Positions 5,539 through 22,362 of a stretch of DNA of 32,661 nucleotides are shown piece by piece. Source of the DNA: an uncultured Bacteroidales bacterium (GTDB lineage Bacteria > Bacteroidota > Bacteroidia > Bacteroidales > UBA932); assembly GCA_900318015.1 (NCBI GenBank), contig ONJB01000038.1:1-32661 (forward strand), read 5' to 3'. A program made the position numbers and the translations under genes. Position 1 is the stretch's first letter, and each line of letters starts with the position of its first letter. The notes under the pieces are model-generated. The model did not search any database. It saw only the letters and a list, made by a program, of their open reading frames with translations, and was not told where the DNA came from.

Positions 5539-5547
5539 TTGAATGGA

Positions 5548-7554: not shown

Positions 7555-7560
7555 GCCGCA

Positions 7561-10500
7561 TTAGAAGTTAACTTGCACGCCCATGTTGACGACGCGGGTC
7601 ATCGGGTAGCGCACGCCGAAGTCGAGGCCGGAGCCCGGGGCTTCCGGGTCGTTGCCGTCGAACGTGGAGAAGGTCAGGAGGTTCTGGCCGGAGGCGAAGA
7701 TCCGGATGTAGTTGAAGAACGGCATGAACTTGGGCTTGTTGAAGGTGTAGCCGAGTTCGACGTTCTTCAGGCGGACGTACCGGGAATTGATCATCCAGGC
7801 GCGGGAATCGTGGTTGTTGTGCACGCGGTTGGTGAACGAGATACGCGGCAGGATGGCGTTCGGGTTGTCTTCCGTCCAGGAGTTGTCGGCGACCCACTGG
7901 GTGAGGGCCGAGGTGTTGGTGGAACCGAACTGGTCGCGGAAGTAGCCGTTCAGGGTGCGGCTCACGTGGTCGGCGCCGGTCCACAGCATGGAGAAGTCGA
8001 GTCCCTTGTAGTGGAGGCCGGTGTTCAGGGAGAACGTGAGTTCCGGGTTGTCGGTGTAGCCGATCGGCTGCTGGTCGTTCTGGTCGATGATGCCGTCGTC
8101 GTTCAGGTCCACATACACGCAGTCGCCGTACTTGAGGGCGATGTTCTGGTCGGGCATGGGCTTGCCGTAGGCGGCCTGGTAGCGCTCTTCGGTACCGGGC
8201 TGGTAGAACTCGAAGAGGTCATAGCCGAAGCGCTGGCCCACCGGGAGGCCGGTGCGGCTCAGGTAGTCGTACATGGGCTTGACCTCGAGCATCTCGATGA
8301 CCTTGTTGCGGGCGAAGGAGACGTTCGGGGAGATGTTGTAGTGGACATTGCCGATGCGGTCTTCCCAGTTCAGGGTGACCTCGAAACCGTGGTTCTTCAC
8401 GCGGCCCTGGTTCACGTAGCTGGAGGGCAGCGAGGTGACGGCGGACAGGGTGTTGGCGTTGGACACGAGGATGTCCTTGCGGTCCTCCCAGAAGAAGTCC
8501 ACATACGCGTGGAGCTTGCTGAAGAAGGTGACGTCCATACCGACGTTGATCTTCTGGGCGGTCTCCCAGGTCACGTTCGGGTTGCCGGCGGTGAGCTCCT
8601 TCACGGCCTGCAGCCAGCCGCCGGAGGTACCGAAGTTGGCACCGCGCTTCTGCGGGTTCACCGTGGTGGCGCCGGTGTAGAACTGCCAGGCGCCGGGCAG
8701 ATACAGGAAGCGGGCGCCGTTGGTGTTGTCGTTACCGACGATACCGTAGGAGCCGCGGAGCTTGAGGTAGCTGATCACGTGGCTGACGGGCTGCCACCAG
8801 GGCTCCATGGACGGAATCCAGCCGATGGACACGGACGGGAAGGTGCCATAGCGCTTGCCGGGGGCGAAGTTCTCGGAACCGTTGCGGCCGATGTTGAAGT
8901 CCAGGAGGTACTTCGTGGCGTAGTCGTAGGTGACACGGCCGACGAGGCCGACGTAGCCCTTCGGGATGGACTGGTACAGGCTGCCGTCGGAATCCCAAGG
9001 ATAGTAGGTCTTGCTCTGGTTGTAGAGCAGGAGGGCGCCGAAGTTGTGCTGGCCGAACTTGCGGTTGTAGTTGAAGCTCGCTTCGGTGTACCAGTTGCGG
9101 CTGCCCCACTTGGACTCGTTGTACGGGAGCGGCCAGGTGATGTTCTCCTTGCGGAGGACTTCCTGTCCGTCCACGATCGTGGCGACATAGGTCAGGCCCG
9201 TACCGAAACCGTTCTGACGGTTCTTGCGGGCGGTGTACTCGGAGTTGTAGGAGGCCTTCACCTTGAAGTCGAGGCCCTTGGTGATGAAGCCCAGGTCCAG
9301 CTTGTACTGGATATCGAAGTTCAGCACGTTCGTGCTTTCGTTCTGGTAACCGAGGTTATAGTAGTTGGAGAGGGCGTCGCGGTCGAACTGGCCGACGATG
9401 GTCTCGTCGGAGATGATGTGGCGGCCCTGCTCGTCGATACCGCTGCCGGCGTAGGGCGTCGCGCCCTGCAGGTAGCGGAACAGGAAGCCTTCACCGCCGC
9501 CCATCGTGTTGCGGTTCTGCATGCGGCCGCCGAGGGTGATGGACACCTGGCTGCGCTTGGAGACGTCGATATCCAGGTTCGCGCGGTAGTTCAGGCGCTG
9601 GAAGCTGAAGGTCTCGTTCTTGTTGCCGGTGAAGGTCTTGAACAGGGAATCCTGGTTCAGGAAACCGGCGGACACGAAGTAGCGGACGCGCTCGGTACCG
9701 CCGTTCACGTTCACATTGGCCTGCTCCTGCCACGCGGCGTCGTTCATGATGTACTTGATCCAGTCCATGCTCGGGAACGTGCGGGGCATGTCGCCGGTGC
9801 GGAAGTGCTCCATGACGTCCTGGGAGAACCGGATGCCGGTGTCGGCATACGGGGTATAGTCGTTGATCGTCCGGGAGCCGGGCCACTGGTTCATGGGCAG
9901 GGCGTCGGTGATCGCGGTGTAGTTCCACATCTGGCCGTAGGTGTAGGAATCGGCGAAGTCGATGAACTTCGAGATCGTCTGCACGGCGGCATTGGCGGAA
10001 GCGGTCACGGAGGCCTTTCCGGTGGTACCGCGCTTGGTGGTCACGAGGATGACACCGTTCGCGCCGCGGACACCGAACACGGCGGTCGCGGACGCGTCCT
10101 TCAGGACGGAGATACTCTCGATTTCATTGGCGTCGAGTTGCGAGAAGGAACGCTCGACGCCGTCCACGAGGACGAGCGGTTCGGCGCTGTTCAGGGATCC
10201 GACACCACGGATGCGGATGACCGGTTCGTCGGCGCCCGGCATACCGGAAGGCTGCACGGCGGACACGCCCGGGAGGTTACCCTGCAGGGCATTCGCGACG
10301 TTCGGCACCGGGGACTTCATCAGTCCCTCGCCACTCACCGCGGAAACCGCACCGGTGATGGTGACCTTCTTCTGCTGGCCGTACGCGATGACCACGGACT
10401 CGTCCAGGGCATCGGTGTCGGGTTCCATGTTGACGGTCATCCTTGCCGTCGCCTGCAGGGCCAGGGTCTTGTAACCGACGCACGAGAACTCGAGCGTGGC

Positions 10501-10719
10501 CCCCTGGGGGACAGACAGCGAGAAGTTACCGTCCATGTCGGTGATCGTGCCGGTATTGGTCCCTTGTATGACCACACCCGCGCCGATCAAACCTTCTCCC
10601 AGCTCATCCAGCACCCGGCCTTGTACGCGCAGGTTCTGGGCGAAAGACTGTCCGGGATGCAGGAGCAGAAGCGCCGCCAGCAATCCGAACAGCTGAGACA
10701 GTTTTCTCATTTTCATCAT
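7561..10719 (-). CDS. SusC/RagA-family TonB-dependent oligosaccharide transporter (first pair)
   Basis: This is a full-length 1052-aa SusC. A signal peptide (cut after SFAQ) is followed by a carboxypeptidase-regulatory-like domain at residues ~28-108 (RVLDELGEGLIGAGVVI, then TDMDGNFSLSVP). The plug follows (IRIRGVGSLN, PLVLVDGVERS, ISVLKDASATAVFGVRGANG, ILVTTKRG), then a large barrel ending in Phe. It imports glycan fragments across the outer membrane in a complex with the adjacent SusD. The first codons are ATGATG, with a third Met at 10710, so the exact start is uncertain by a few residues. No TAnnTTTG promoter is visible in the 50 bp upstream, so transcription probably comes from the promoter before the small outer-membrane protein gene. 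The 1052/668/931/558-aa order of C, D, C, D resembles xusA-xusB-xusC-xusD, which is the basis for the xylan hypothesis. Confidence 0.96.
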   Translation of the reverse strand: MMKMRKLSQLFGLLAALLLLHPGQSFAQNLRVQGRVLDELGEGLIGAGVVIQGTNTGTITDMDGNFSLSVPQGATLEFSCVGYKTLALQATARMTVNMEPDTDALDESVVIAYGQQKKVTITGAVSAVSGEGLMKSPVPNVANALQGNLPGVSAVQPSGMPGADEPVIRIRGVGSLNSAEPLVLVDGVERSFSQLDANEIESISVLKDASATAVFGVRGANGVILVTTKRGTTGKASVTASANAAVQTISKFIDFADSYTYGQMWNYTAITDALPMNQWPGSRTINDYTPYADTGIRFSQDVMEHFRTGDMPRTFPSMDWIKYIMNDAAWQEQANVNVNGGTERVRYFVSAGFLNQDSLFKTFTGNKNETFSFQRLNYRANLDIDVSKRSQVSITLGGRMQNRNTMGGGEGFLFRYLQGATPYAGSGIDEQGRHIISDETIVGQFDRDALSNYYNLGYQNESTNVLNFDIQYKLDLGFITKGLDFKVKASYNSEYTARKNRQNGFGTGLTYVATIVDGQEVLRKENITWPLPYNESKWGSRNWYTEASFNYNRKFGQHNFGALLLYNQSKTYYPWDSDGSLYQSIPKGYVGLVGRVTYDYATKYLLDFNIGRNGSENFAPGKRYGTFPSVSIGWIPSMEPWWQPVSHVISYLKLRGSYGIVGNDNTNGARFLYLPGAWQFYTGATTVNPQKRGANFGTSGGWLQAVKELTAGNPNVTWETAQKINVGMDVTFFSKLHAYVDFFWEDRKDILVSNANTLSAVTSLPSSYVNQGRVKNHGFEVTLNWEDRIGNVHYNISPNVSFARNKVIEMLEVKPMYDYLSRTGLPVGQRFGYDLFEFYQPGTEERYQAAYGKPMPDQNIALKYGDCVYVDLNDDGIIDQNDQQPIGYTDNPELTFSLNTGLHYKGLDFSMLWTGADHVSRTLNGYFRDQFGSTNTSALTQWVADNSWTEDNPNAILPRISFTNRVHNNHDSRAWMINSRYVRLKNVELGYTFNKPKFMPFFNYIRIFASGQNLLTFSTFDGNDPEAPGSGLDFGVRYPMTRVVNMGVQVNF

Positions 10720-10769
10720 GATTGGTAATTGATTGGTTGGTTGTATTTGGTTGGTTTGGTTTTAAGCAG
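10720..10769 (-). promoter_or_regulatory. ACCAA-rich unstructured leader before the first susC
   Basis: The 50 bp between the small outer-membrane protein gene and susC read, on the coding strand, as A/C-rich DNA with about six copies of ACCAA, some in tandem (ACCAACCAA). There is no G-rich Shine-Dalgarno sequence and no -7 promoter element. An unpaired A-rich leader suits Bacteroidetes translation initiation, which depends little on Shine-Dalgarno pairing. The short repeats could also slip and change leader length. Confidence 0.4.
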
Positions 10770-11360
10770 CTAGAAAAGCCAGCGGATCCCCACGTTCACA
10801 AGGCCTTGCATGCCGAGCCCCAGCTCCGCGAACCCGCGGAACGACTCGCCGCCGAAGTCCATGCCGATGGGCGTCGCCTGGAAGGCAAACGCGAAATTGT
10901 CCTTGGTATCCTCGCTCTGGTTGGTGAAGGTGAACCCCGCGCCCGCGGCCAGCTTGGAATACAGGCCCACGTGCTCCCGGTTCAGCCACGCGAACTTCAC
11001 CTCCGGCATCGCGCTGACGATCCCGAGAGTGAACTTCCCGTTGGGCGTCTTCTTGCCCTCGCTGTCCACGTTCATCGCCGTCGCCGTCATGTAATCGCAC
11101 AGGACCGCCCCGCCGAAGCCCAGCCAGTCGTTGACATAGTGGACATACTCCACGCCCGCTCCGCCGATGAAATGCGCATTCTCGAACGAGAAGTGCCCGA
11201 GGGAGAACATCGACCCGAACACGCCGCCCAGCACATAGGCGGCCTGCGGCACCGTAATCTGGCCGTAGGTGATGGAAAACTCGTTCTTGTCCGTGTCATT
11301 CTTGGCGAAGACAGGACAGACGACAATCAGACACAGGAGAAGTGCTACTAATTTTTTCAT
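10770..11360 (-). CDS. Small outer-membrane beta-barrel protein, function unknown
   Basis: This 196-aa protein has a clear signal peptide (MKKLVALLLCLIVV, cut after VFAK or nearby). The mature part alternates aromatic, Gly-rich and hydrophobic strands (FIGGAGVEYVHYV, FGGAVLCDYMTA, VGLYSKLAAGAGF, GFAELGLGMQGLVNVGIRWLF) and ends in Phe. This is the pattern of a small 8- to 10-stranded outer-membrane barrel. It is the first gene after the 11383-11390 promoter and lies 50 bp before susC on the same strand, so it may be the first cistron of the uptake operon or a separate upstream gene. No catalytic motif is visible. It could be a structural or porin-like protein; the barrel call is firm but the role is unknown. 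Confidence 0.75.
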   Translation of the reverse strand: MKKLVALLLCLIVVCPVFAKNDTDKNEFSITYGQITVPQAAYVLGGVFGSMFSLGHFSFENAHFIGGAGVEYVHYVNDWLGFGGAVLCDYMTATAMNVDSEGKKTPNGKFTLGIVSAMPEVKFAWLNREHVGLYSKLAAGAGFTFTNQSEDTKDNFAFAFQATPIGMDFGGESFRGFAELGLGMQGLVNVGIRWLF

Positions 11361-11712: not shown

Positions 11713-11949
11713 GTAAGTCCCAGCGGGGGCCAGTGCACTCCTGCGTCATAACGGATTTCAGCCGATCGCGTAGGGGGGAAGGCGCTTGACGGCTGACTCC
11801 TCCCTTTTACGGGCCCGGCTGCACCGGTCCCGTAACGGTCGTCAAACACACGCCGTCATCCCGTTCCGGGACCGCTGCCTTCCCCCCTGCTCCCCTGTCG
11901 CTGAAATCCGAATTCCGCAGGAGCACACCGCCCCCCGACGAAGACTTAC
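11713..11949. repeat. Palindromic element copy A (~237 bp), inverted relative to copy B
   Basis: This is a long imperfect palindrome. Paired arms are GTAAGTC (11713-11719) with GACTTAC (11943-11949), GGATTTCAGC (11753-11762) with GCTGAAATCC (11900-11909), and GGGGGGAAGGC (11773-11783) with GCCTTCCCCCC (11877-11887). A central hairpin pairs TTACGGG (11807-11813) with CCCGTAA (11829-11835). It aligns end to end with the reverse complement of the element at 17054-17283, including the shared strings GCGCTTGACGGCT and CAAACACACGCCGTCATCCC. Its right end is 6 bp from the stop of the DUF2075 gene. There is no coding potential; it is MITE-like or a structured RNA/DNA element. Confidence 0.8.
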
Positions 11950-11955
11950 AGCCAA

Positions 11956-14013
11956 CTAAATTTCCGTCAGCCCCAGCTCTCTAAATAACTCATACGTCCC
12001 ATCATAAAACTCCGGCAATCTAGTAGCATCCTCGGGATTACCTTCAGGGACGCAGATGACCATGCCTTGGCGGGCGCGGGTGAGGAGGACACGGTAGGCG
12101 TTGAGCTGGTAGGCACGGCCTTCGGCGATGTTGATGTTTTGCCAACGGTCGGAGCGGAAGTTGAAGTGCTGCCAGCAGTGGCGGTAGGGATCGTAGCGGA
12201 AGTCGCCGTCCCAGACGAGGCAGGTCCAATCGAGTTCCAGGCCTTGGATGTCGAATTCCGTGGCGACGTCTTCCAGGAAGAGGGAGGAACGAATGTCTGT
12301 GATGGGGTTCAGGAACCAGGGGACAATATCGGCCTGAGAGCGAATATCAATTGCTAGTGGCTTCAGGCGGAAGGCCTTGGAGGAGACGAGCATTCCGTAA
12401 CGCTCTGAGCCACGAGCGTGCTCTCGGAGCCAAGCCTTGGCTTTGGCCAGATCACGAGTGAGAACAATGGGATAGCGGTCTTTGATATCGTCGTAAGTCT
12501 TTCGGGCGGCGGCGATATCCAGATCCAAGAATTGATGGACAAATAAGGAAAGCGTCTCAGCTCGGTAAGAGCGCTGAGAGACTGCGAGATGCAGGTCGGG
12601 GCGAAGGTGAACGTTGGAGTTTTCCGCGAGCAAGTCGCTGACATTTCCTTCGGCGTATTCCTTTTCCGTCAATTGATTCGAGATGTAAATCTGCCAGTCG
12701 GGGAATTGCTGGTTGAGTGCATCGATCCATAAACCGATGCCGCCTTCACCGGAGTTAATCTCCTGTCCCCCACCCACTAAGCAAACGATGGTTGCCCAGT
12801 CTTTATGCTGGTCCAAAGACCAAATGAGAAACTCTCCTTCCGACATGGGAAAATCGTTCACGCCTTTCTTTCGCGCGAGCCAGGCGCTCAGGTGACGCAT
12901 ATCCCACATGCGCTGCGCTTCGTCGAAGATCGCTACGTTTTCGACTTCGGCGGCGCTCTTTTCAGCAGCTTTGGAAATCATCGCCGGATCCAGTTCAATC
13001 TGTCCATCACGAATGGGCATCTTCAACTTTCCGAGCATGTTATCCCGGTAGCGATGAATGATCTGGATGAATCGGCTTACTTGGCGTTCTGCTTCGGTCT
13101 TTGTGCATCGGCGACCGCGATCTTTCTCCTTCTGTACCTTATCGCGAGCCAATGCTTCGGTAAGTACTTTCACAAGCGGTCCGTTGCCGGAAAGGTAAAC
13201 GGCCAAGTCTCCTTCTTCCTGCTGGATTGCAACGTTCAAGCCCACAAGCGTTTTTCCCGCTCCGGGCACCCCAGTCACGAAGCAAATGCTCTTCTGATGA
13301 TTCTCTTTCGATTGTTTGATGATGTCCAGAATGAACGCCGTGCAACTATCGATTCCGGCCTTATCGGCTTCATGCTTAGTGATATCTGCGACGCTATGAT
13401 TCATGTATAACGCAGAGGCCGCTTGGATGATGGTTGGAGTCGGGCTATACCGGCTAAAGGTCCATTCATGCGCATCCAGGGCCGGTTGCGATTCTATTTC
13501 GCTCAAGACTCTCTGGAGGATGGGCAATAACGTATCCGCATTACTAAATAACGGATAATAAACATGATCATCGTAATAACTAAAGATGGCTTTCCCCAAA
13601 GAGCAATCTCTCTTCGGCGCCTCTGTCGCTACGAGAATCGGAACAATGATGCGATCCCGGCTTTCTTCGTGGAAGTTCTTCAAGTCTAGCGCATAATCCC
13701 AAACTTGCTCCTTGTCATTGACTAAGAACGCCTCGGCACCGATCTTGAACTCAATGGCGAAAACCACTCCTCTCATAAGGAGGACGACATCAACCCTCTT
13801 CCCAAGTCGCGGAATGGTGTATTCGAATAGGATTTGACCATCCTCCCCTAACGTTCCCAGCACGCTCTTCATGATATCAAACTCCTCCAACCAAGCATTG
13901 CGCTGATCCATGGTCAAGTCAAACTCATTCACCTGATCCATGGTCCCCAGTATAGCATCCACCGGCCGAGCAAGAAATTCGGCTACCGACTCGCTATAAT
14001 AGTAACGTTGCAT
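11956..14013 (-). CDS. DUF2075 (schlafen/SF1-like) ATPase with N-terminal PD-(D/E)xK-like nuclease region
   Basis: This 685-aa protein appears to have two parts. Residues ~55-135 have the arrangement of a PD-(D/E)xK nuclease fold: E64, D75 (RVDVVLL), then E88-F-K90 (AIEFKIG). The DUF2075 ATPase follows, with Walker A GVPGAGKT (248-255), Walker B AIFDEAQ (361-367), the motif EFDIQGLELDW near 586-596, and an arginine-finger-like VLLTRARQGM near 642-651. Known DUF2075 proteins are SF1-like NTPases acting on nucleic acid; the nuclease assignment is my reading of the motifs. The gene diverges from an Upf1-like helicase-nuclease gene 200 bp away, and the pair is bracketed by inverted palindromic elements. 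Its base composition is visibly more A+T-rich than the SusCD genes, suggesting transfer. A defence role is inference. A 23-bp inverted repeat surrounds its start codon. Confidence 0.85.
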   Translation of the reverse strand: MQRYYYSESVAEFLARPVDAILGTMDQVNEFDLTMDQRNAWLEEFDIMKSVLGTLGEDGQILFEYTIPRLGKRVDVVLLMRGVVFAIEFKIGAEAFLVNDKEQVWDYALDLKNFHEESRDRIIVPILVATEAPKRDCSLGKAIFSYYDDHVYYPLFSNADTLLPILQRVLSEIESQPALDAHEWTFSRYSPTPTIIQAASALYMNHSVADITKHEADKAGIDSCTAFILDIIKQSKENHQKSICFVTGVPGAGKTLVGLNVAIQQEEGDLAVYLSGNGPLVKVLTEALARDKVQKEKDRGRRCTKTEAERQVSRFIQIIHRYRDNMLGKLKMPIRDGQIELDPAMISKAAEKSAAEVENVAIFDEAQRMWDMRHLSAWLARKKGVNDFPMSEGEFLIWSLDQHKDWATIVCLVGGGQEINSGEGGIGLWIDALNQQFPDWQIYISNQLTEKEYAEGNVSDLLAENSNVHLRPDLHLAVSQRSYRAETLSLFVHQFLDLDIAAARKTYDDIKDRYPIVLTRDLAKAKAWLREHARGSERYGMLVSSKAFRLKPLAIDIRSQADIVPWFLNPITDIRSSLFLEDVATEFDIQGLELDWTCLVWDGDFRYDPYRHCWQHFNFRSDRWQNINIAEGRAYQLNAYRVLLTRARQGMVICVPEGNPEDATRLPEFYDGTYELFRELGLTEI

Positions 14014-14024
14014 AGGAACGTTAC
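14002..14024. promoter_or_regulatory. Perfect inverted repeat enclosing the DUF2075 start codon (candidate operator)
   Basis: GTAACGTT (14002-14009) and AACGTTAC (14017-14024) form a perfect 8-bp inverted repeat. The 7-bp centre (14010-14016) contains the start codon at 14013-14011. It abuts the -7 element at 14024-14031, so it would overlap the transcription start. That position fits an autorepressor operator or an RNA hairpin over the initiation codon. Confidence 0.5.
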
Positions 14025-14031
14025 AAAAATA
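14024..14031 (-). promoter_or_regulatory. -7 promoter element for the DUF2075 gene
   Basis: Minus-strand TATTTTTG matches TAnnTTTG and lies 10 bp before the start codon, so the transcript would have almost no leader. No clear -33 element was found. Confidence 0.45.
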
Positions 14032-14144
14032 GCAAAAAATGACTAATTGTAAGAAGGTTATATCGTGGCTATAAAGGATTTGTCCTCTGTATCACTTATT
14101 AGCTACTTAGTGGTCCTCTTTGCATACACCTTTATTGGTCCCGT

Positions 14145-14176
14145 TTTGATAATCTCGAGAGAATCCCCTACCTTTG
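14145..14176 (+). promoter_or_regulatory. Consensus promoter for the SF1 helicase-nuclease gene
   Basis: TTTG (14145-14148) and TACCTTTG (14169-14176) are separated by 20 bp, a full Bacteroidetes -33/-7 pair. The leader to the ATG at 14214 would be about 30 nt and contains a small hairpin (TTAGCT/AGCTAA). Confidence 0.7.
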
Positions 14177-14213
14177 CTTAGCTAGCGAAGAAAGCTAACC
14201 CTGCGTTAGAATC

Positions 14214-16904
14214 ATGCCCTCAACCAAGCCCATCATATTCCTCAAAGGCGAGTTACGTGATGACATCAAGTTTTCAAGACTTGATGAAGAAACAGGGATG
14301 TACCTTGTGCAGTTCAAAAAGGGAGAGAATTATCTATATTACAAACCCGAAAATGTCGACGAGGCGAAGTTCGTGCGGCAGATGGATCCGCCGCTGAGGG
14401 TCATAAGGAAGAAGGATGGTTTCGTGTTCTCCAAGACGATGGGGGTGAGGGTGTTTGAGGGGAAGGAGCACCGGGGTTATCGGGTTGTATTTGAGAGTGG
14501 GGCGACGAAGGACTATGATGCCGATTATCTGGAGATCGAGGAGCATATCGACGATGAGCGGTCGGTCAATGTTTGGGAGTATCTGAACGAGATTGCGAAG
14601 TACAACCAGATCCCTGTCGATGATGACAAGACAATCAGCCTTGCCGATAAGTATGCGAGGTTGGAATTTGTGACGAAGGGGTCTTTGCTGGAGGCGTATC
14701 TCAATGTCGATTCCTATCGAAACAAGGCCGGTAAACCGAGTACGCCCATATTCCCTTTCGGGTGCAATCGGAGCCAATACAAGGCGGTGCGGAATGCGCT
14801 GGAGAATAAGATAAGCGTCATCCAGGGGCCTCCGGGCACAGGAAAGACGCAGACGATTCTTAACATCCTAGCGAATCTGCTGTTGGAGGAGAAGACGATG
14901 GAAATCGTGTCCAACAACAATTCCGCCGTTGAGAATGTCAAGGAAAAGCTGGAAGCGAGCGGGCTCGGATTCATTTGCGCCCAGCTAGGACGAGCCAGCA
15001 ATAAAGAGGATTTCGTCAATGGGCAGACGGGCTTGGGTCCAGACATTGGTTCCTGGAAGGTGGCGGATACGAGCCAATTGAAAAGCCAGGTAAAAGCATT
15101 ATCTCGGGAACTGCAGGAACTGTATGAGTGTCAGGAGGATTTTTCGTTATTCACTGATGAATTGAAGGAGTTGAAGCTGCAGGCAGAACGTTTTCCCCGG
15201 AAAGTAACGACGCAAGGGCAATATCCTGCTGCCAAGCTTCAGAAGTATGCTCTCCGTTGCAACCGAGATATGGAGCAAAAACATCGCCTCTCGTGGTGGA
15301 CACGACTCGGGTTGCGTTTTCACCGCCTTCCGACTACCGAAGACGCGCTGGATCAACTCCAGTACCTCTATGTCGACACCAAAATCAGCGAACTGGAAAA
15401 GACTTGCAAGGAACTTCGGGCACGGCTCAAAGGCGTTGACGAGAAAAATAAACGGCTTAGGGACCTCTCCATGCTCATCCTGAAGGATCACTTGGCGAGA
15501 CAGTATGGGCAGCAGAAAGAAAGAACGGTATTCTCGTCTGACGACCTATACTACAACTCTTTGGCGTTCTTGAAGGAGTATCCCGTGGTATTGAGCACGA
15601 CCTTTTCGGCAACGTCCAATATCAACCCGATCCGCAAGTTCGATTATCTAATCATGGATGAAGCCTCTCAGGTCGATATCGCGGCAGGAGCTTTGGCGCT
15701 GAGCTGCGCGAAGAATGCGGTGATTGTGGGAGACTTGAAGCAGCTTCCCAATGTTGTGGACAGCCATACGGAGGAGGTTGTGAGCGCGGTTTTTGCGAAA
15801 TACGGAATCAATGAAGCCTATCGCTACTCCACGAATAGTTTCCTTTCTTCTCTCTGCCTGTTATATCCAAAGATCCCACAAACGCTTTTGCGAGAACATT
15901 ACCGGTGCGATCCGCTCATTATCGGCTTCTGTAGCAAGCAGTTCTATAATGGGGAATTAATTCCTATGAAGAAAGGAGAGACGGAATTCGCTCCCATTCG
16001 TGTTGTCCGGACAGTCAAGGGAAATCATGCGAGGGGCACCGTCAATTATCGCCAAGTAGATACCGTCACCCAAGAGATCTTGCCTGTGTTGGAGGAGCGG
16101 TTTACGGATATCGGAATCATTACTCCTTATAACAATCAGGTCAAGGCTTTCCGGGATGCTTTGAAGACGACTGGTCGAGAATACGTTGCTGCCACCGTTC
16201 ACAAGTTCCAGGGCCGTGAGGATGACGCCATCGTCCTTTCCACCGTGGATAATCAAATCCGGGAGTTCACGGATGACCCCCACCTGTTGAATGTCGCAGT
16301 ATCCAGGGCCAAGAAGCAGTTCACACTGGTGGTTTCCGCGGACGAGCAACCGGATTCCAACATACGGGACCTGATAGATTACATCGAGTATTATCAGGGC
16401 GAGAGTGTTCAGAGTGAGATCTCTTCCATCTACGACCTCCTTTATAGAGACTATACCCAGGAGCTTCTCAACTTCTATAAAACTCATCCTCGGCGGGTCT
16501 CCGAGTACGATTCTGAGAATTTGACATACTGGGCCATTCGTGATGTCCTCCAGGAAAAAAGCTTTGCTCATTTTGATGTTTTGATGCACTATCCCCTACG
16601 GCATCTGGTCACATCTGCTTCCAACCTGACGCAGGAACAGCGTACCTATGCTTCTCGATCTTGGACACACCTTGATTTCCTCGTTTACGACACTGTTACC
16701 CACAAGGCGAAATTGGCTATCGAAGTAGATGGGACCCAATACCATAGGCGCGGTTCTCACCAAGGACAGCGGGACCAGATCAAGGATTCCATCCTGGAAG
16801 CTATCGGCCTGCCACTCCTCCGCCTGAGCACAAACGGCTCGCAAGAAAAGGAGAAGATTGCTCAAGCTCTCGCAAGAACGAACAACGTCGACACTTCCGC
16901 CTGA
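14214..16904 (+). CDS. Upf1-like SF1 helicase (AAA_11/AAA_12) with C-terminal PD-(D/E)xK-type nuclease domain
   Basis: This 896-aa protein has complete SF1 helicase motifs: GPPGTGKT (205-212), DYLIMDEASQVD (477-488), GDLKQLP (506-512), EHYRCDPLI (561-569), IGIITPYNNQ (633-642), TVHKFQGRED (661-670) and LNVAVSRAKK (692-701). A long insert at ~285-450, partly coiled-coil-like, separates motif Ia from motif II. The C-terminal ~100 residues hold a Vsr/DUF559/DUF2726-type nuclease signature: HLDFLVYD (D821), then LAIEVDGTQYH (E837, D839, H843). The first 180 residues match no domain I recognise and may bind nucleic acid or a partner. Helicase-nuclease fusions of this type unwind and cut DNA or RNA, and many belong to bacterial defence systems. 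It has its own strong promoter facing away from the DUF2075 gene. The family call is firm; joint function with that gene is inferred from proximity and shared flanking repeats. Confidence 0.9.
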   Translation: MPSTKPIIFLKGELRDDIKFSRLDEETGMYLVQFKKGENYLYYKPENVDEAKFVRQMDPPLRVIRKKDGFVFSKTMGVRVFEGKEHRGYRVVFESGATKDYDADYLEIEEHIDDERSVNVWEYLNEIAKYNQIPVDDDKTISLADKYARLEFVTKGSLLEAYLNVDSYRNKAGKPSTPIFPFGCNRSQYKAVRNALENKISVIQGPPGTGKTQTILNILANLLLEEKTMEIVSNNNSAVENVKEKLEASGLGFICAQLGRASNKEDFVNGQTGLGPDIGSWKVADTSQLKSQVKALSRELQELYECQEDFSLFTDELKELKLQAERFPRKVTTQGQYPAAKLQKYALRCNRDMEQKHRLSWWTRLGLRFHRLPTTEDALDQLQYLYVDTKISELEKTCKELRARLKGVDEKNKRLRDLSMLILKDHLARQYGQQKERTVFSSDDLYYNSLAFLKEYPVVLSTTFSATSNINPIRKFDYLIMDEASQVDIAAGALALSCAKNAVIVGDLKQLPNVVDSHTEEVVSAVFAKYGINEAYRYSTNSFLSSLCLLYPKIPQTLLREHYRCDPLIIGFCSKQFYNGELIPMKKGETEFAPIRVVRTVKGNHARGTVNYRQVDTVTQEILPVLEERFTDIGIITPYNNQVKAFRDALKTTGREYVAATVHKFQGREDDAIVLSTVDNQIREFTDDPHLLNVAVSRAKKQFTLVVSADEQPDSNIRDLIDYIEYYQGESVQSEISSIYDLLYRDYTQELLNFYKTHPRRVSEYDSENLTYWAIRDVLQEKSFAHFDVLMHYPLRHLVTSASNLTQEQRTYASRSWTHLDFLVYDTVTHKAKLAIEVDGTQYHRRGSHQGQRDQIKDSILEAIGLPLLRLSTNGSQEKEKIAQALARTNNVDTSA

Positions 16905-16909
16905 AAACC

Positions 16910-17041
16910 GAGCGCGGGCAAATCCTCATTCTACACCTTGAGTAAGGAATTCGTCTGCTTTAGGGGCCTTTTAAAATGGGCCTAAAGCGGAGCGAATGCC
17001 ATTGTAGTGCGCGAGGACATGGTTGGCCCGCGCTCGCTTTT
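16910..17041. other. Hairpin-rich segment after the helicase gene, terminator-like on the plus strand
   Basis: This gap has no gene. GAGCGCGGGC (16910-16919) pairs perfectly at long range with GCCCGCGCTC (17026-17035), followed by GCTTTT. Inside it, GCTTTAGG (16957-16964) pairs with CCTAAAGC (16981-16988). The end (GGTTGG..CTCGCTTTTCAT) resembles the terminator at 17546-17575, which suggests a duplicated or remnant segment. Confidence 0.45.
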
Positions 17042-17053
17042 CATGGGCCTGCA

Positions 17054-17283
17054 GGAAGGTTCGCTCGTGGCGGCGGGGCGGTCCTGCGGGATTCGGATTT
17101 CTGCGGCTAATGAGCAGGCGGGAAGGCAGCGGTCCCGCCAGGGATGACGGCGTGTGTTTGAGCGCTAGTTAGGCCCGCGCGGCGGGCCTAACTGAGCGAG
17201 TTAGCCGTCAAGCGCCTTCCCGCCTACGCGAATCGCAGAAATCCGTCATTCCGCAGGACCGCCCCGCCGCCCGGCAACCTTCC
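17054..17283. repeat. Palindromic element copy B (~230 bp), inverted relative to copy A
   Basis: Outer arms GGAAGGTT (17054-17061) and AACCTTCC (17276-17283) are perfect. The next arms, 17069-17089 and 17251-17271, are perfect over 21 bp. Further paired arms are GGATTTCTGC (17095-17104) with GCAGAAATCC (17235-17244), and GGCGGGAAGGC (17117-17127) with GCCTTCCCGCC (17214-17224). The centre is an 11-bp hairpin with a 3-nt loop (17168-17192). Its reverse complement aligns along its full length with copy A. It ends 5 bp before the Rpn remnant reading frame, so it probably inserted into or replaced the 5' part of that gene. Confidence 0.85.
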
Positions 17284-17288
17284 CGCTC

Positions 17289-17519
17289 TTGTTTGAATCC
17301 GCGGAAATTGCTACTTTTACACCGCAGGAAAAGATTAAACTTGAATTCGATATGAGAACCGAGCGTGACATAAAGAACCAGATTGCCTACGCAAAGAAAG
17401 AGGGTCGTGAGGAAGGACGTGAGGAGGGACGTGAGGAAGAACGAATCCGTATCGTTGAGAATCTTCGGAAATTAGGGATTTCTGAAGAGAAGATTGCCAG
17501 TGCCATTGAGGCCAAATGA
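17289..17519 (+). pseudogene. C-terminal remnant of an Rpn / PD-(D/E)xK-family transposase-like nuclease
   Basis: The 76 codons from TTG at 17289 read like the tail of Rpn/PDDEXK_2 proteins: FESAEIATFTPQEK, a helical stretch (RDIKNQIAYAKKEG), the charged EGREEG repeat, and a final IVENLRKLGISEEKIASAIEAK-type helix. Complete members of the family are around 300 aa with the nuclease domain N-terminal; that whole part is missing here. The remnant begins directly after palindromic element B, which implies truncation by insertion or recombination. The EGREEG stretch comes from three tandem 12-bp units (17407-17442), a known slippage-prone feature of this family. A short functional protein cannot be excluded but is unlikely. 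A terminator follows 27 bp downstream. Confidence 0.7.
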
Positions 17520-17545
17520 TGACGCAAGCAAGTTCGCAATAATGA

Positions 17546-17575
17546 GCGAGAGCAGGTTGGTCTGCCCTCGCTTTT
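17546..17575 (+). terminator. Intrinsic terminator after the Rpn remnant
   Basis: The stem GCGAG-a-GCAG (17546-17555), loop GTTGGT, and CTGC-c-CTCGC (17562-17571) are followed by TTTT (17572-17575). Confidence 0.65.
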
Positions 17576-17599
17576 CATTTCTCTTCCGTTCTTTTTCAC

Positions 17600-17607
17600 T
17601 ATCTTTG
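17600..17607 (+). promoter_or_regulatory. -7 promoter element for the DUF2200 gene
   Basis: TATCTTTG matches TAnnTTTG and lies 8 bp before the ATG at 17615, so the transcript would be nearly leaderless, unless translation starts at the in-frame ATG at 17630. Confidence 0.5.
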
Positions 17608-17614
17608 ATGCACG

Positions 17615-17962
17615 ATGGACGTATTCGAAATGAAATTCTCCAAGGTGTTTCCTTTGCTCATCGCCAAGGCGGTGAGGAAGGGACGTACGGAAATGGAGGT
17701 GTTTGCCGTGACGGAATGGCTTACGGGCTATTCTGAAGAGGAGTTGCGGGCGCTGTTGAGCAGTGATTCGACCACGTACGGGGAGTTTCTGGATAAGGCG
17801 CCGTGCATGAATCCGGCGCGGTTCTTGGTGAAGGGAAAGGTTTGCGGCATCCGGGTCGAGGAGATCGAAGATCCGCGCATGCGCGACCTTCGGATCCTGG
17901 ACAAACTCGTCGACGACCTCGCCAAAGGAAAACCCCTCGACAAAATCCTGCCGAAGGGGTGA
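17615..17962 (+). CDS. DUF2200 family protein
   Basis: This 115-aa protein matches my memory of the DUF2200 pattern closely: an N-terminal FEMKFSKVFPLLIAKAVRKGRT segment, EWLTGYSEEELRALL, then APCMNPARFLVKGKVCGIRVEEIEDP, and ending in KLVDDLAKGKPLDKIL. The family is widespread in bacteria as a short single-domain cytoplasmic protein of unknown function. The start at 17615 keeps the residues before KFSKV that are usual in the family; 17630 is the alternative and would give a more normal leader. It stands alone with its own promoter, between the Rpn remnant and hipBA. There is no signal peptide or membrane segment. The family assignment is good; no function is proposed. Confidence 0.85.
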   Translation: MDVFEMKFSKVFPLLIAKAVRKGRTEMEVFAVTEWLTGYSEEELRALLSSDSTTYGEFLDKAPCMNPARFLVKGKVCGIRVEEIEDPRMRDLRILDKLVDDLAKGKPLDKILPKG

Positions 17963-18009
17963 ACCTTGAAGTTGACAAGGGTGGAGAGCACCTTCCCGTC
18001 CCAGTTCTC

Positions 18010-18040
18010 TTGCTTATGTGATTATTATTTCTTATATTTG
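18010..18040 (+). promoter_or_regulatory. hipBA promoter
   Basis: TTG (18010-18012) and TATATTTG (18033-18040) are 20 bp apart, a good -33/-7 pair. Transcription should start near 18047, inside the left arm of the candidate operator. Confidence 0.65.
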
Positions 18041-18095
18041 CATAACATAATATGCCATATCGCTATTTTATTGGCTTTTTTAATACTATGTTATG
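18041..18095. promoter_or_regulatory. Candidate HipB operator: separated 9-bp inverted repeat
   Basis: CATAACATA (18041-18049) and TATGTTATG (18087-18095) are exact reverse complements separated by 37 bp. The left arm follows the -7 element directly and the right arm ends in the hipB start codon. Autorepression by HipB dimers at two sites is the usual control in this family. Confidence 0.5.
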
Positions 18096-18404
18096 GAATA
18101 TCGGCTTGATAATTATACTCGCAACCCGCAGGTTCTTTTGGACCGGATGGCCCAGAATTGCCGGGCGAGACGGTTGGAGAAGGGGTATAGCAGGAAGACG
18201 CTTTCAGAGCTTACCGGCATTCCAGCCCCGACCATAGAACGGTTTGAAAGGACAGGGAAGATTTCCTTAGAAGCCTTCTGCCGGCTTGTCATTGAGTTTG
18301 ATTACTTCGACGAGATGGCCGCACTGCTCAACCACACCAAGTACTCGACCTCCCGGGAACTCGAGGCGATCAACAAGAACTTGAATAGAAAGAACGGCCG
18401 ATGA
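18093..18404 (+). CDS. hipB: HipB-like XRE-family antitoxin / autorepressor
   Basis: This 103-aa protein has a central XRE-type helix-turn-helix at about residues 20-68 (RRLEKGYSRKTLSELTGIPAPTIERFERTGKISLEAFCRLVIEFD). A short charged C-terminal helix follows. Its last four bases overlap the start of the HipA-like kinase gene (ATGA, 18401-18404), the standard arrangement of hipBA operons, so co-translation is likely. The predicted role is to bind and neutralise HipA and to repress the operon. The promoter at 18010-18040 and the 9-bp inverted repeat ending at its ATG support that model. The symbol reflects operon position and family; sequence identity to E. coli HipB cannot be judged here. Confidence 0.85.
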   Translation: MEYRLDNYTRNPQVLLDRMAQNCRARRLEKGYSRKTLSELTGIPAPTIERFERTGKISLEAFCRLVIEFDYFDEMAALLNHTKYSTSRELEAINKNLNRKNGR

Positions 18405-19531
18405 TTGACGTCAAGAAAATCAATGTCCTGCTCCGGGACGAACCCGTAGGCACGCTGCAGAGGGACCCGGCCAATGGCGTCTGCGTATTCGAATACGACA
18501 AGGGTTGGCTTGCCAACGGTTTTTCCCTGTCTCCGACTGAACTTCCCCTTCAAAGCGGTCTTTTCTATGCCGACAAAGACAAGTTCGGAGGAGGATTTGC
18601 CGTCTTTGAGGACAGCCTCCCGGACGGTTACGGCTTGTATCTGCTTGACCGGATGCTCCGAAAACAAAACACCTCGCTCATGGAGTTGAATCCCCTGCAG
18701 CGCCTCTCAATCATTGGAACGGCAGGAATGGGCGCATTGACATACCTTCCCATGATGACGGGGTTCCATGCCCAAAAGGAACTGGAAGACATCGCGCAAT
18801 TGGATCATCTGCAAGAAGAGGCCTTGAAGGTACTCTCGGAAAAAGGGGTTGGAGACGAGTCGTATCTGTATTATAACAGCGCCAATTCCGGTGGTGCCAG
18901 ACCCAAAACCGCCCTGAGGAGCCGCGATGGCTCGCACTGGCTCGTCAAGTTCCGCCATGTTTATGACCCGGAGGACATCGGCAAGAGCGAGTTCCTGTAT
19001 ATGAAGACGGCCCGTGCGTGTGGAATCACGATTCCCCGGATCGGCTTGGTGAAAGACCGGTACTTCGCCATCGAAAGGTTCGACTTTGCGCCCGATGGGA
19101 AGAAACGGCATGTCGTGACGGCCGCCGCGCTTCTGAAAACAGATTTCCGCAAGCAGGATGTCGACTACATCAATCTGCTGGCCCTGACCGGATACCTGAC
19201 CCAGGATCCGGGCCAGGTGGAAGAGATGTTCCGCAGGATGGTGATGAACCTCGTAGCCGTCAACAAAGATGACCATTCAAAGAACTTCTCTTTCCTCTGC
19301 GATGACGGGAAATGGTCCCTCGCTCCAGCCTATGATATCACCTATTCTCCCTTGGGTTCGAATGGCGAGCATGCCACCTCCCTCTTTTATAACGGAAATC
19401 CGGGCTTCGATTTGGTGCTGAAAGCCGGCACAGAGATCCGCATCCCCGAATCGACCTGCCGGACCATCATCAAAGAAGTGGAAGAGACCTGTGAAAAGCA
19501 CCTTCCTGTCGTATCCAGACTTACTCACTAA
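18401..19531 (+). CDS. hipA: HipA-family serine/threonine kinase toxin
   Basis: This 376-aa protein is a full-length HipA with an intact N-terminal subdomain (FEDSLPDGYG, 69-78), so it is not one of the split HipS/HipT types. Kinase motifs are all present: the Gly-rich loop SGGARPK (163-169), the ATP-binding lysine K183 (WLVKF), ERFDF (225-229), catalytic NKDDHSKN (288-295), and the metal-binding PAYDIT (309-314). HipA toxins phosphorylate a translation target, glutamyl-tRNA synthetase in E. coli, and arrest growth. The target here is unknown. The kinase appears competent. Its stop codon overlaps the 3' end of the convergent deoxyribosyltransferase-like gene by 11 bp. It sits at the end of the accessory stretch with the Rpn remnant and helicase cassette. 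Confidence 0.93.
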   Translation: MIDVKKINVLLRDEPVGTLQRDPANGVCVFEYDKGWLANGFSLSPTELPLQSGLFYADKDKFGGGFAVFEDSLPDGYGLYLLDRMLRKQNTSLMELNPLQRLSIIGTAGMGALTYLPMMTGFHAQKELEDIAQLDHLQEEALKVLSEKGVGDESYLYYNSANSGGARPKTALRSRDGSHWLVKFRHVYDPEDIGKSEFLYMKTARACGITIPRIGLVKDRYFAIERFDFAPDGKKRHVVTAAALLKTDFRKQDVDYINLLALTGYLTQDPGQVEEMFRRMVMNLVAVNKDDHSKNFSFLCDDGKWSLAPAYDITYSPLGSNGEHATSLFYNGNPGFDLVLKAGTEIRIPESTCRTIIKEVEETCEKHLPVVSRLTH

Positions 19532-19952
19532 GGCCAGGCCTTAGAAACTCAACGTCTCTATCTACATACAGTTTTTCCACCAACTCCTCCAAAGTCCCCG
19601 CGACGCCGTCGAAGAGCTTGTACATGAGCTCGGGTTCGACCATTTCGGGGAGGTAGGCGAGGACGCGCTTGCCGGCGCCGGCCATCCAGCCAGCTTCGGT
19701 GTGCGCGCTGCGGCCGCAGGGGAGGACGAGGACGCAGGTGTCGGCCCAGGTGAGGGCGTCGATGTCGGCCTGGAACTGGCGCTCGGCGAGGGGGTGGTGG
19801 AGGTCGGGATCGACATCGGTCCAGTGGAAACCGGCGCCGCCGTGGGGCGGATTGCGGAAGTCGTAGACTTCGTGTCCTGCTTCACGCAGGCGGGTTACCA
19901 CTTCGGGGAAGTATGGGTTCCTCCAGCTGGAGGCGACGTAGATTCTGGCCAT
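19521..19952 (-). CDS. Nucleoside 2-deoxyribosyltransferase-like protein
   Basis: This 143-aa cytoplasmic protein begins with MARIYVASSWRN, the N-terminal strand and loop typical of this superfamily. It continues with a YDFRNPP motif, FQADIDALTWADTCVLVLPCGRSAHTEAGWMAGAGK, and a short C-terminal helix. The Glu in HTEAGW is placed like the catalytic nucleophile of nucleoside 2-deoxyribosyltransferases, and the preceding DTCVLVLP strand fits the fold. Known members cleave or transfer deoxyribose between bases; related proteins act on modified or damaged nucleotides. The substrate is unknown. It has its own promoter (19987-19994), which is divergent from that of the next plus-strand gene, and it converges on hipA. 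Confidence 0.8.
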   Translation of the reverse strand: MARIYVASSWRNPYFPEVVTRLREAGHEVYDFRNPPHGGAGFHWTDVDPDLHHPLAERQFQADIDALTWADTCVLVLPCGRSAHTEAGWMAGAGKRVLAYLPEMVEPELMYKLFDGVAGTLEELVEKLYVDRDVEFLRPGLSE

Positions 19953-20614: not shown

Positions 20615-22360
20615 ATGTACAAGTTTTCCCATTTCTGCCTTGTCCTGGCGCTGCTGGTGGCAAGCTTTCCGGCCCGGGCGCAACACCCGCAGCCCGAGCA
20701 CAGCTACCTCGAGATCTATGACCTGGAGACCCGCACGCACCGCGTGGTGAAGGAATTCCCCTACGTCATCGAAGCCCCCAACTGGACCCCCGACGGGAAA
20801 TGGCTCGTCGTCAACATCGACGGAAAACTCTTCAAGCTCGCGCCCGACGGCTCTTCCGACCTCATCCAGATTCCCACCGGCGACATCACCCAGTGTAACA
20901 ACGACCACGTGGTGACCGCCGACGGCAAATGGATTGGCCTGAGCAGCAACGACCCCGCCAACAAGCGGTATAACTCGTACGTCTATGTGGTCCCGTTCGA
21001 GGGCGGGCAGCCGCGGCGGATCACCCCCGAAGGGCCCAGCTACCTGCACGGCATCAGCCCCGACGGGAAGACAGCCGCGTACTGCGCCTTCCGCGGACCC
21101 GAGCAGGAGCAGGACGTATGGGCCATGCCCGTCAAGGGCGGCCCGGAAGTCCGGCTCACGGACGCGCCCGGCCTGGACGACGGCCCCGAGTACAGCCCCG
21201 ACGGCAAGCACATCTGGTTCAACAGCGTCCGCACCGGCCGGATGCAGGTCTGGCGGATGAAGGCCAACGGCAAGCAGCAGACCCAGATGACCTTCGACGA
21301 GGACATGAACTCCTGGTTCCCGCACATCTCCCCGGACAACCAGAAAGTCGTGTACATCGCCTACCACGACTACGAAGTCGCCCCCGACTCCCACATCGCG
21401 GACCTCAACGTCCAGCTCCGCCTCATCCCCGCCACCGGCGGGAAGCCCGAGACCCTCGTGGAGTTCTTCGGCGGGCAGGGCAGCATCAACGTGAACTCCT
21501 GGAGCCCCGACAGCAAGCAGTTCGCCTACGTGAGCTACCGGCTCACGGACGAACTGACCGCGCCTTCACGGGACATGGCCGTCCAGCTGTACTCCGTGCG
21601 CACCCTGATCGGCACGCCCGAGCAGTTCGCCAAGAACCACGCCTACGTGCTCCGGCGGCTCGCCCAGATGGGCTACACCGCCGCCGAGGCCGTCGGCTAC
21701 GACAACGGGAAGTTCGTCGGGCTCGCCCCCGCCGCGTACCGCGAAGCGGTGGAATCGGCCGGGCTGAAGCTCCTCTCCTCGCACGTCTCCCACACGCTGT
21801 CGGCCCAGGAACTCGCCTCCGGCGACTTCTCCAAGGCCCTCGCCTGGTGGGATGACTGCATCGCCGCGCACAAGGCCGCCGGCATCCCCTACCTCGTGAT
21901 GTCCTGGTCCAACCCCCTGCAGACCAAGGCCCAGATGTCCGTGATGGCCCGGTACCTGGACGCCGTCGGCGCCAAGTGCCGCGCGGCCGGCATCCGCTTC
22001 GGCTACCACTGCCACAGCCACGAGTTCAAGCCCACGGACGGCACCACCATGGCCGACGTCTTCCTCTCCGAGACCAAGCCCGAGAACCTCTTCCTCCAGA
22101 TGGACGTGTACTGGGCCGTCGTGGGCGGCGCCAGCCCCGTGGAGTACTTCAAGAAGTATCCCGGCCGGTTCGAACTCCTCCACATCAAGGACAAGTACGA
22201 GCTCGGCCAGAGCGGCATGGTGGGCTTCGACGCCATCTTCAAGGCCATGCCCACCGCCGGCACCAAGGCCTTCGTCGTGGAACTGGAGCAGGCCTCCACG
22301 CCCAACATCCTCAAGGGCCTCCGCGAGAGCGCCCTCTATCTGAGAAAGGCAAACTTCTGA
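20615..22360 (+). CDS. Secreted fusion: TolB-like beta-propeller plus sugar isomerase/epimerase-like TIM barrel
   Basis: After a signal peptide (cut after ARAQ), residues ~28-310 contain repeated TolB/PD40 propeller units (WTPDGKWLVV, ISPDGKTAAY, YSPDGKHIWF, ISPDNQKVVY, WSPDSKQFAY). At ~319 the sequence changes to an AP-endonuclease-2/xylose-isomerase-like TIM barrel beginning MAVQLYSVRT, the usual first strand of stand-alone family members. Candidate metal ligands are in CHSHEF (H468, E470), QMDVYW (D497), LLHIKD (H523) and VVELEQ (E556). Secreted sugar isomerase-like proteins are common in Bacteroidetes glycan loci; the reaction is unknown. The frame is continuous with uniform codon use across the junction, so this looks like a real fusion. 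The next gene (DUF1593) starts 2 bp after its stop, so the two are translationally coupled. Confidence 0.85.
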   Translation: MYKFSHFCLVLALLVASFPARAQHPQPEHSYLEIYDLETRTHRVVKEFPYVIEAPNWTPDGKWLVVNIDGKLFKLAPDGSSDLIQIPTGDITQCNNDHVVTADGKWIGLSSNDPANKRYNSYVYVVPFEGGQPRRITPEGPSYLHGISPDGKTAAYCAFRGPEQEQDVWAMPVKGGPEVRLTDAPGLDDGPEYSPDGKHIWFNSVRTGRMQVWRMKANGKQQTQMTFDEDMNSWFPHISPDNQKVVYIAYHDYEVAPDSHIADLNVQLRLIPATGGKPETLVEFFGGQGSINVNSWSPDSKQFAYVSYRLTDELTAPSRDMAVQLYSVRTLIGTPEQFAKNHAYVLRRLAQMGYTAAEAVGYDNGKFVGLAPAAYREAVESAGLKLLSSHVSHTLSAQELASGDFSKALAWWDDCIAAHKAAGIPYLVMSWSNPLQTKAQMSVMARYLDAVGAKCRAAGIRFGYHCHSHEFKPTDGTTMADVFLSETKPENLFLQMDVYWAVVGGASPVEYFKKYPGRFELLHIKDKYELGQSGMVGFDAIFKAMPTAGTKAFVVELEQASTPNILKGLRESALYLRKANF

Positions 22361-22362
22361 TT

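Follow-up and report, generated by a model that had tools for sequence, protein, structure and literature searches.

A variable candidate defence slot with palindromic elements at its joints in an uncultured Bacteroidales bacterium

We analysed a 32,661-nt stretch of DNA (hereafter the window) from an uncultured Bacteroidales bacterium (UBA932; assembly GCA_900318015.1, contig ONJB01000038.1), a gut bacterium related to rumen bacteria. The window contains two genes for putative nuclease-helicases, here called A and B, which lie between two palindromic elements. Comparison with related genomes indicates that the site between an outer membrane protein (OMP)-like gene and a nucleoside deoxyribosyltransferase-like gene is probably a defence hotspot, filled by interchangeable and independent single-gene candidates such as A and B. 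An initial annotation made from the sequence had instead proposed A and B as a two-component defence system; coordinates are collected in Table 1.

Six states of one site

The same site was recognised in six states, in the window and in the relatives G164, RUG193, G141, G160 and G079. These do not sample the slot at random, since A led to RUG193, and elements or genes of the pair led to G141 and G164. The window reads element, A, B, element. G164 carries an element, A (97%) and a second element, followed by a PDC-S01 ATPase, hipB and a DUF2200 gene; a passage of PMC13356809 describes PDC-S01 as common in rumen genomes. In RUG193, an element and A (97%) precede a UvrD-like helicase gene (up to 889 aa), which is followed by a further element and hipBA. 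Between A and the helicase gene lies a 26-bp mini-element that consists of the tips only and overlaps the helicase gene if its start is placed as far upstream as possible. G141 has a truncated element, B (90%) and an element, with the OMP-like gene outside as in the window. In G160, a collapsed remnant, the outer half of the left element and a 54-bp mini-element lead directly to hipB, with no gene between. G079 is empty: the OMP-like gene, which is a neighbour in G164 and G141 as well, runs together with its upstream region into the deoxyribosyltransferase-like gene.

The empty site defines the borders of the island. At the G079 locus (L241), window position 11716 corresponds to 10128 and window position 19573 to 10071, with 56 bases replacing 7,856. 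On the left, the flank aligns in pieces of 80–92% identity and one exact piece of 31 bp, with about 330 extra bases in G079; on the right, identity is 89–94% and reaches window position 31693. The left border and the outer edge of the left element are no more than about 5 bases apart; in the other four occupied sites a left element, whole or partial, is present at the same place. On the right, the border falls where the deoxyribosyltransferase-like gene ends; the final residues of that gene product are not those of the empty-site version.

Variable defence genes between conserved flanks and the presence of an empty site are features of known defence islands and hotspots, from which this locus differs by the palindromic elements at its joints. 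From the interpretation begun in the initial annotation, the six states support a defence-like site that varies and is exchanged between species, with an empty counterpart in a relative. An empty site between the palindromes, for which it suggested looking in related strains, was seen only as the collapsed form in G160; the clean empty site in G079 lacks the palindromes too. The island also differs in base composition, as claimed, with a GC content of 0.517 against 0.619 in the left and 0.642 in the right flank. That the arrangement is a binning or assembly artefact of a metagenome-derived genome, a suspicion raised by its 106 contigs and the repeats at the joints, is barely credible, because two other assemblies, G164 and RUG193, show the same flanks, at about 90% identity, together with an element, A, an element and hipB.

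Genes A and B as probably separate candidates

The distribution of the two genes argues for their independence. Among 200 same-genus genomes, including the window's own genome (G000), A was found in 24 and B in 17 at a cut-off of E at most 1e-60, and six genomes held both (G000, G001, G108, G110, G141 and G164); 18 of the 24 carriers of A are without B, and 11 of the 17 carriers of B without A. The genes are neighbours in the window, G001, G108 and G110. Their orientation varies, being divergent in the window and in G001, where a deoxyribosyltransferase-like gene lies between them, and tandem in G108 and G110. G141 has B and, about 5 kb away at a contig end, a partial A-like match (48%); in G164 the two genes are on different contigs. 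Among 295 order-wide genomes, A was present in 16 and B in 11, with both in the window's genome and in G254, where they occupy different contigs. Neighbouring copies were thus seen in 4 of the 35 genus genomes with A or B, and in 1 of 25 across the order, the window's own. Among 21 A loci from genome contigs, several with short flanks, B lies in the flank of two, L110 (taken to be the G001 contig) and L113. At L113 (9001–15952), A and B share a strand and are separated by two genes (316 and 361 aa), perhaps within a single operon.

The two-component proposal draws on the adjacency of A and B in four of the six genus genomes that hold both, and at L113. However, most carriers hold a single gene, a lone A (G164) or a lone B (G141) can occupy the space between the palindromes, the orientation is not fixed, and G254 keeps the genes apart. 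The proposal is left unsupported by these observations, and we consider it very unlikely. Their distribution marks A and B as separate genes which lie together in some genomes, as is usual for defence genes.

A matches the Pfam family SLFN-g3_helicase (4e-70), which we take to be the former DUF2075, and contains Walker motifs (Walker A at 248–255, DEAQ at 364–367), in line with its earlier description as a DUF2075-type ATPase. Residues 1–684 match positions 1–652 of the 657 in the PADLOC model PDC-S41 (870.9 bits, E 1.3e-262), a nearly full-length profile match in which we saw no difference from that candidate family. The N-terminal region carries a PD-(D/E)xK-like signature (E64, D75 and E88-x-K90), read by eye. 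These residues and the Walker motifs are kept in at least 95% of 41 aligned rows, which include near-duplicates; A thereby conserves the nuclease-like and Walker residues that we assume to define PDC-S41. A PD-(D/E)xK-like N-terminus had been noted earlier; its fold was not confirmed by a model search. Weak structure matches of A to Can2 and to an archaeal Holliday-junction resolvase were not taken as evidence.

A resembles AbiO and Nhi in that one protein combines a nuclease with a superfamily 1 (SF1)-type helicase. Its matches to these models amount to just 15.6 (Nhi) and 15.3 bits (AbiO) over residues 235–266, the Walker region, and A is not assigned to either family. A related SLFN-g3 protein encoded on another contig of the window's genome (C67) scores 65 and 55 bits to AbiO/Nhi and 69 to PDC-S41. 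In G127 (C120) and G413 (C1), A is present in two pieces in different frames, one with a stop, as if decaying, and the copy in G278 has one stop.

B contains AAA_11 and AAA_12 domains (7e-26 and 1.5e-25) and a C-terminal DUF2726 domain (5e-13), with MTES_1575 below the cut-off; these matches bear out an Upf1-like helicase with a C-terminal nuclease domain. Among solved structures, its nearest relatives by sequence are SMUBP-2, DNA2 and Upf1. The predicted nuclease residues are D821, E837, D839 and K857; across 28 rows, near-duplicates among them, D821 is found in 28, E837 in 27 and D839 in 26. B shares its SF1B helicase core with Mokosh (MkoA/MkoC), Hhe and PDC-S37. These models cover partial helicase stretches only (MkoC best, at 174.9 bits), whereas B ends in a DUF2726-type nuclease, and B is assigned to none of them. 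We found no PADLOC or NCBIfam model that spans the whole of B, the NCBIfam models scoring far below their own cut-offs. The label "undescribed" given to the pair therefore holds for B, which has no full-length PADLOC match, and fails for A, which is already the PADLOC candidate PDC-S41.

In each protein, the helicase motor may translocate on foreign or abnormal nucleic acid, or sense it, and the protein's own nuclease domain would then cut it. Single-protein nuclease-helicase systems such as Nhi/AbiO are reported to act in this way.

Several observations weigh against the reading of A and B as independent defence candidates. Co-occurrence in the genus is higher than expected (6 against about 2; Fisher p 0.008, relatedness ignored) and four of these six genomes have the genes as neighbours, which leaves room for some mutual preference within the genus; the order-wide set has no such excess (p 0.41). 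The fold model of A is mostly of low confidence (mean predicted local distance difference test score, pLDDT, 59), and a structure search with it gave no match at E up to 0.001. The model of B is unusable (pLDDT 41).

Pattern scans of IMG/VR, which find close relatives, confirmed no relative of A or B. Phage records, searched with B only, contained two partial B relatives. Seven plasmid records carry a relative of B and three a relative of A, all below 60% identity; one of these B relatives, in a record from Parabacteroides, has a DNA methylase gene and a TIR gene nearby, and two others that were examined are without such neighbours. A literature search, with most subscription papers outside it, found no paper that joins DUF2075 with defense and phage, names PDC-S41 or describes the element. 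A term search of the main text of PMC13092281 found no mention of DUF2075, DUF2726, Schlafen, helicase or Upf1.

The palindromic element

The two palindromes, described as about 230 bp long and mutually inverted, were confirmed by blastn to be 78% identical over most of their length. A covariance model matches them at 11752–11910 (+, 2e-32) and 17094–17245 (-, 6e-42), with E-values inflated by the presence of both copies in the model seed. The element occurs beyond this locus, with five copies at three loci in the window's genome, and we aligned 22 copies from G000, G016, G079, G084, G141, G164 and RUG193. In the RNAalifold structure, which derives from this same alignment, 97.6% of cells pair and 18 of 40 pairs have changed on both sides (90 cells). 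None of 500 shuffles reaches these pairing and compensation values, and sliding the partners by 1–3 columns lowers pairing to below 50%. Complementarity of the 40 bases outside the core is high within a copy (mean score 38.6) and far lower between copies (15.3; shuffled 11.9).

The model matches 36 of the 200 genus genomes at E up to 0.001 and exceeds 75 bits in eight. Judged from these alignments, the element is a dispersed intergenic family with strong compensatory base changes, and since it is dispersed through the genus it was not made for A and B. A 3' palindrome as a feature of gene A was likewise rejected: 3 of 19 usable A loci score at least 45, and the median is 20 at A loci and 17 at 144 other genes (p 0.05). 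An RNA gene was also considered; no Rfam family matches at E up to 1 in the window or at L037 and L038 (contigs C67 and C41 of G000). G-U pairs are few (25 of 871 cells, 16 of those in one pair), so that a DNA palindrome fits better than an RNA gene. In most copies from G084, G164 and G079, the apical hairpin, of TTTTAC or CAGTTAG type, follows the genome rather than the stem subtype, as if copies were homogenised within a genome; G000 holds both types.

The family resembles REP/BIME (repetitive extragenic palindromes and bacterial interspersed mosaic elements), REP-associated tyrosine transposase (RAYT) units and miniature inverted-repeat transposable element (MITE)-like repeats in being palindromic, intergenic and covarying, and in forming inverted pairs; sections of PMC2817692 describe RAYT genes flanked by inverted REPs. 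It differs from REP/RAYT in its length of about 230 bp, against 20–40, and in its five copies found in the genome, against usually more than 100, and we do not place it there. A RAYT/REP unit was rejected, as no Y1_Tnp match lies within 25 kb of any element found. The 29 Y1_Tnp matches in 10 genomes include one strong match (G160 C85, 139.5 bits), on a contig in which no element was found; the rest score 21–37 bits. In IMG/VR, one exact conserved element motif had no match, and a shorter motif, found in at least 120 stretches, lacked the specificity to be informative.

Once the data had been seen, we divided the strong copies by a stem motif; neither resulting group forms a clade in the tree. 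For the window's subtype, the GGCGGGA type, 9 of 12 loci have a defence candidate next to the element, compared with 2 of 16 loci of the other strong copies (Fisher p 0.001). Counted by site, the figures are 5 of 7 and 2 of 16 (p 0.01). The nine are G000 C24, C67 and C41, G164 C30, G141, G016 C78, G079 C7 (an AAA_15 ATPase; PADLOC best NsnB), G084 C1 and G084 C74; the three not counted are G160 C104 (the collapsed slot), G160 C74 (ORF6N/PDC-S05) and G157 C121. RUG193, found through A, was excluded. The two other strong loci with defence neighbours have a B relative (G164) and an AbiEi-like gene (G079). All three element loci of G000 adjoin defence candidates, namely A and B at the first, a MazG-like gene with an SLFN-g3 helicase at the second and a DruE-containing set at the third. 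Because the split was post hoc, the loci are related and neighbours were scanned unevenly, some with Pfam only or not at all, we treat this association as a lead and not as a result.

Two of these loci deserve description. A second slot, at L037 (7361–10729) and L122 (G016 C78; 7589–12125), holds a MazG-like gene, identified by eye, and an SLFN-g3 helicase between inverted elements. Relative to the common left flank, the MazG-like gene lies at opposite ends in the two, so that the contents look inverted or independently acquired. At L038 (9186–18999), a single element lies upstream of a Druantia-like set, which consists of an AAA gene, one gene of 1007 aa and a DruE-like gene (PADLOC DruE2, 1025 bits).

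This material bears on the part that the palindromes may play. One unlikely reading is that, in this genus, the window's subtype of this large, covarying palindrome is an exchangeable end of single-gene defence cassettes, so that genes would be gained, stacked, replaced and lost between the palindromes. These would act through their hairpin shape, since the outer arms of each copy stay complementary to each other yet differ between copies. In an equally unlikely version, a transposase or recombinase supplied in trans would move small mobile cassettes that have the palindromes as their dedicated ends and A, B and others as passengers. Inverted ends around a cargo are the layout of a composite transposon or mobile cassette, and six pairs face the same way (+ then -: the window, G000 C67, G164 C30, RUG193, G016 C78 and G016 C45), as does the G141 pair with one end truncated. 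A defence candidate lies on the inner side of six single elements (G000 C41, G079 C7, G079 C30, G084 C1, G084 C74 and G164 C33), and an element with A also occurs at an unrelated site in G084. The left island border and the subtype association point in the same direction. On the other hand, no transposase is present among the scanned genes inside brackets, A and B being the large open reading frames (ORFs) of the window's bracket, and by eye, with no systematic search, we recognised no target duplication at the junctions of the window and its relatives. Moreover, the island's right border does not coincide with the right element, G084 C1 has two elements of the same orientation 9 kb apart, and the family also adjoins glycosidase, permease, peptidase and surface-protein genes, the G016 C45 pair enclosing one of the last. 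A recognisable element is found at just 4 of the 21 A loci (one partial), and the grouping behind the association has the weaknesses given above.

The palindromes may, with a probability only slightly below even, be ordinary intergenic repeats or terminators without part in the exchange, which would proceed by flank recombination alone; this is compatible with a hotspot. In G110, G107 and several other genomes, weaker relatives of the element often lie just after gene stops (about 30–130 bp in G110 and several others), partly between convergent genes, a placement that PMC3733652 reports for REPs. Against this, slot break points fall at or near element edges in several genomes. Under the hotspot reading, contents may be exchanged mainly by recombination in the conserved flanks and common palindromes. 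Long self-complementary arms may also favour deletion, which would explain the truncated and miniature copies.

Layout of the locus and its meaning

The island is a mosaic in the order palindrome, A, B, palindrome, Rpn-like remnant, DUF2200, hipBA (Table 1). The divergent arrangement of A and B across a 200-bp gap was confirmed, as was the claimed spacing, with the left palindrome ending about 6–14 bp from the stop of A and the right one beginning about 150 bp past the stop of B. Pfam supports the adjoining DUF2200 gene and the HipA protein; the small helix-turn-helix protein preceding HipA is just under the cut-off. The possible tip of a third element in the A–B gap lies at the position of G164's right element, a weak match whose score is equalled by 1.4% of 1000 shuffles.

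Table 1. Features of the locus in window coordinates
Feature	Coordinates	Strand	Remarks
OMP-like gene	10770..11360	-	Conserved left flank; named by sequence look only, no match in Pfam scan
Defence island	11717..19572	.	Missing at homologous G079 site; ~7.86 kb, hipBA included
Left palindromic element	11721..11950	+	Core 11752-11910
Gene A	11956..14013	-	685 aa; PADLOC PDC-S41
A-B gap	14014..14213	.	200 bp; possible decayed tip of third element near 14049-14069
Gene B	14214..16904	+	896 aa; Upf1/SMUBP-2-like SF1B helicase with C-terminal DUF2726-type nuclease
Small palindrome downstream of B	16902..17043	.	Stretch in common with RUG193's UvrD-like gene, which replaces B there
Right palindromic element	17054..17284	-	Core 17094-17245
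Putative Rpn remnant	17289..17519	+	76-aa ORF alone; name from initial annotation
DUF2200 gene	17615..17962	+	Inside island; other relative positions in G164 and RUG193
hipB-like and hipA-like genes	18093..19531	+	Inside island; missing from G079 site
Nucleoside deoxyribosyltransferase-like gene	19521..19952	-	Conserved right flank; Pfam match below cut-off; C-terminus unlike empty-site version

Relatives of the deoxyribosyltransferase-like gene lie directly beside A in G001 (L031 9634–10059, 6 bp upstream) and adjoin A in G018 (L032 8202–8708). Beside the hotspot, window positions 20651–22380, with an ORF at 20615–22360, are absent from the matching places of G079 and RUG193, a second presence/absence difference. 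A 1731-aa open frame at 5533–10728 (+), antisense to two genes initially named SusCD, is probably a high-GC by-product.

Among related gut bacteria, the locus shows at close range how a candidate defence slot gains, exchanges and loses its contents, and it sets right the attractive idea of a two-component system. The palindromic element poses the more interesting question. Should the palindromes prove to be working ends, their sequence could be used to search these genomes for new defence genes.

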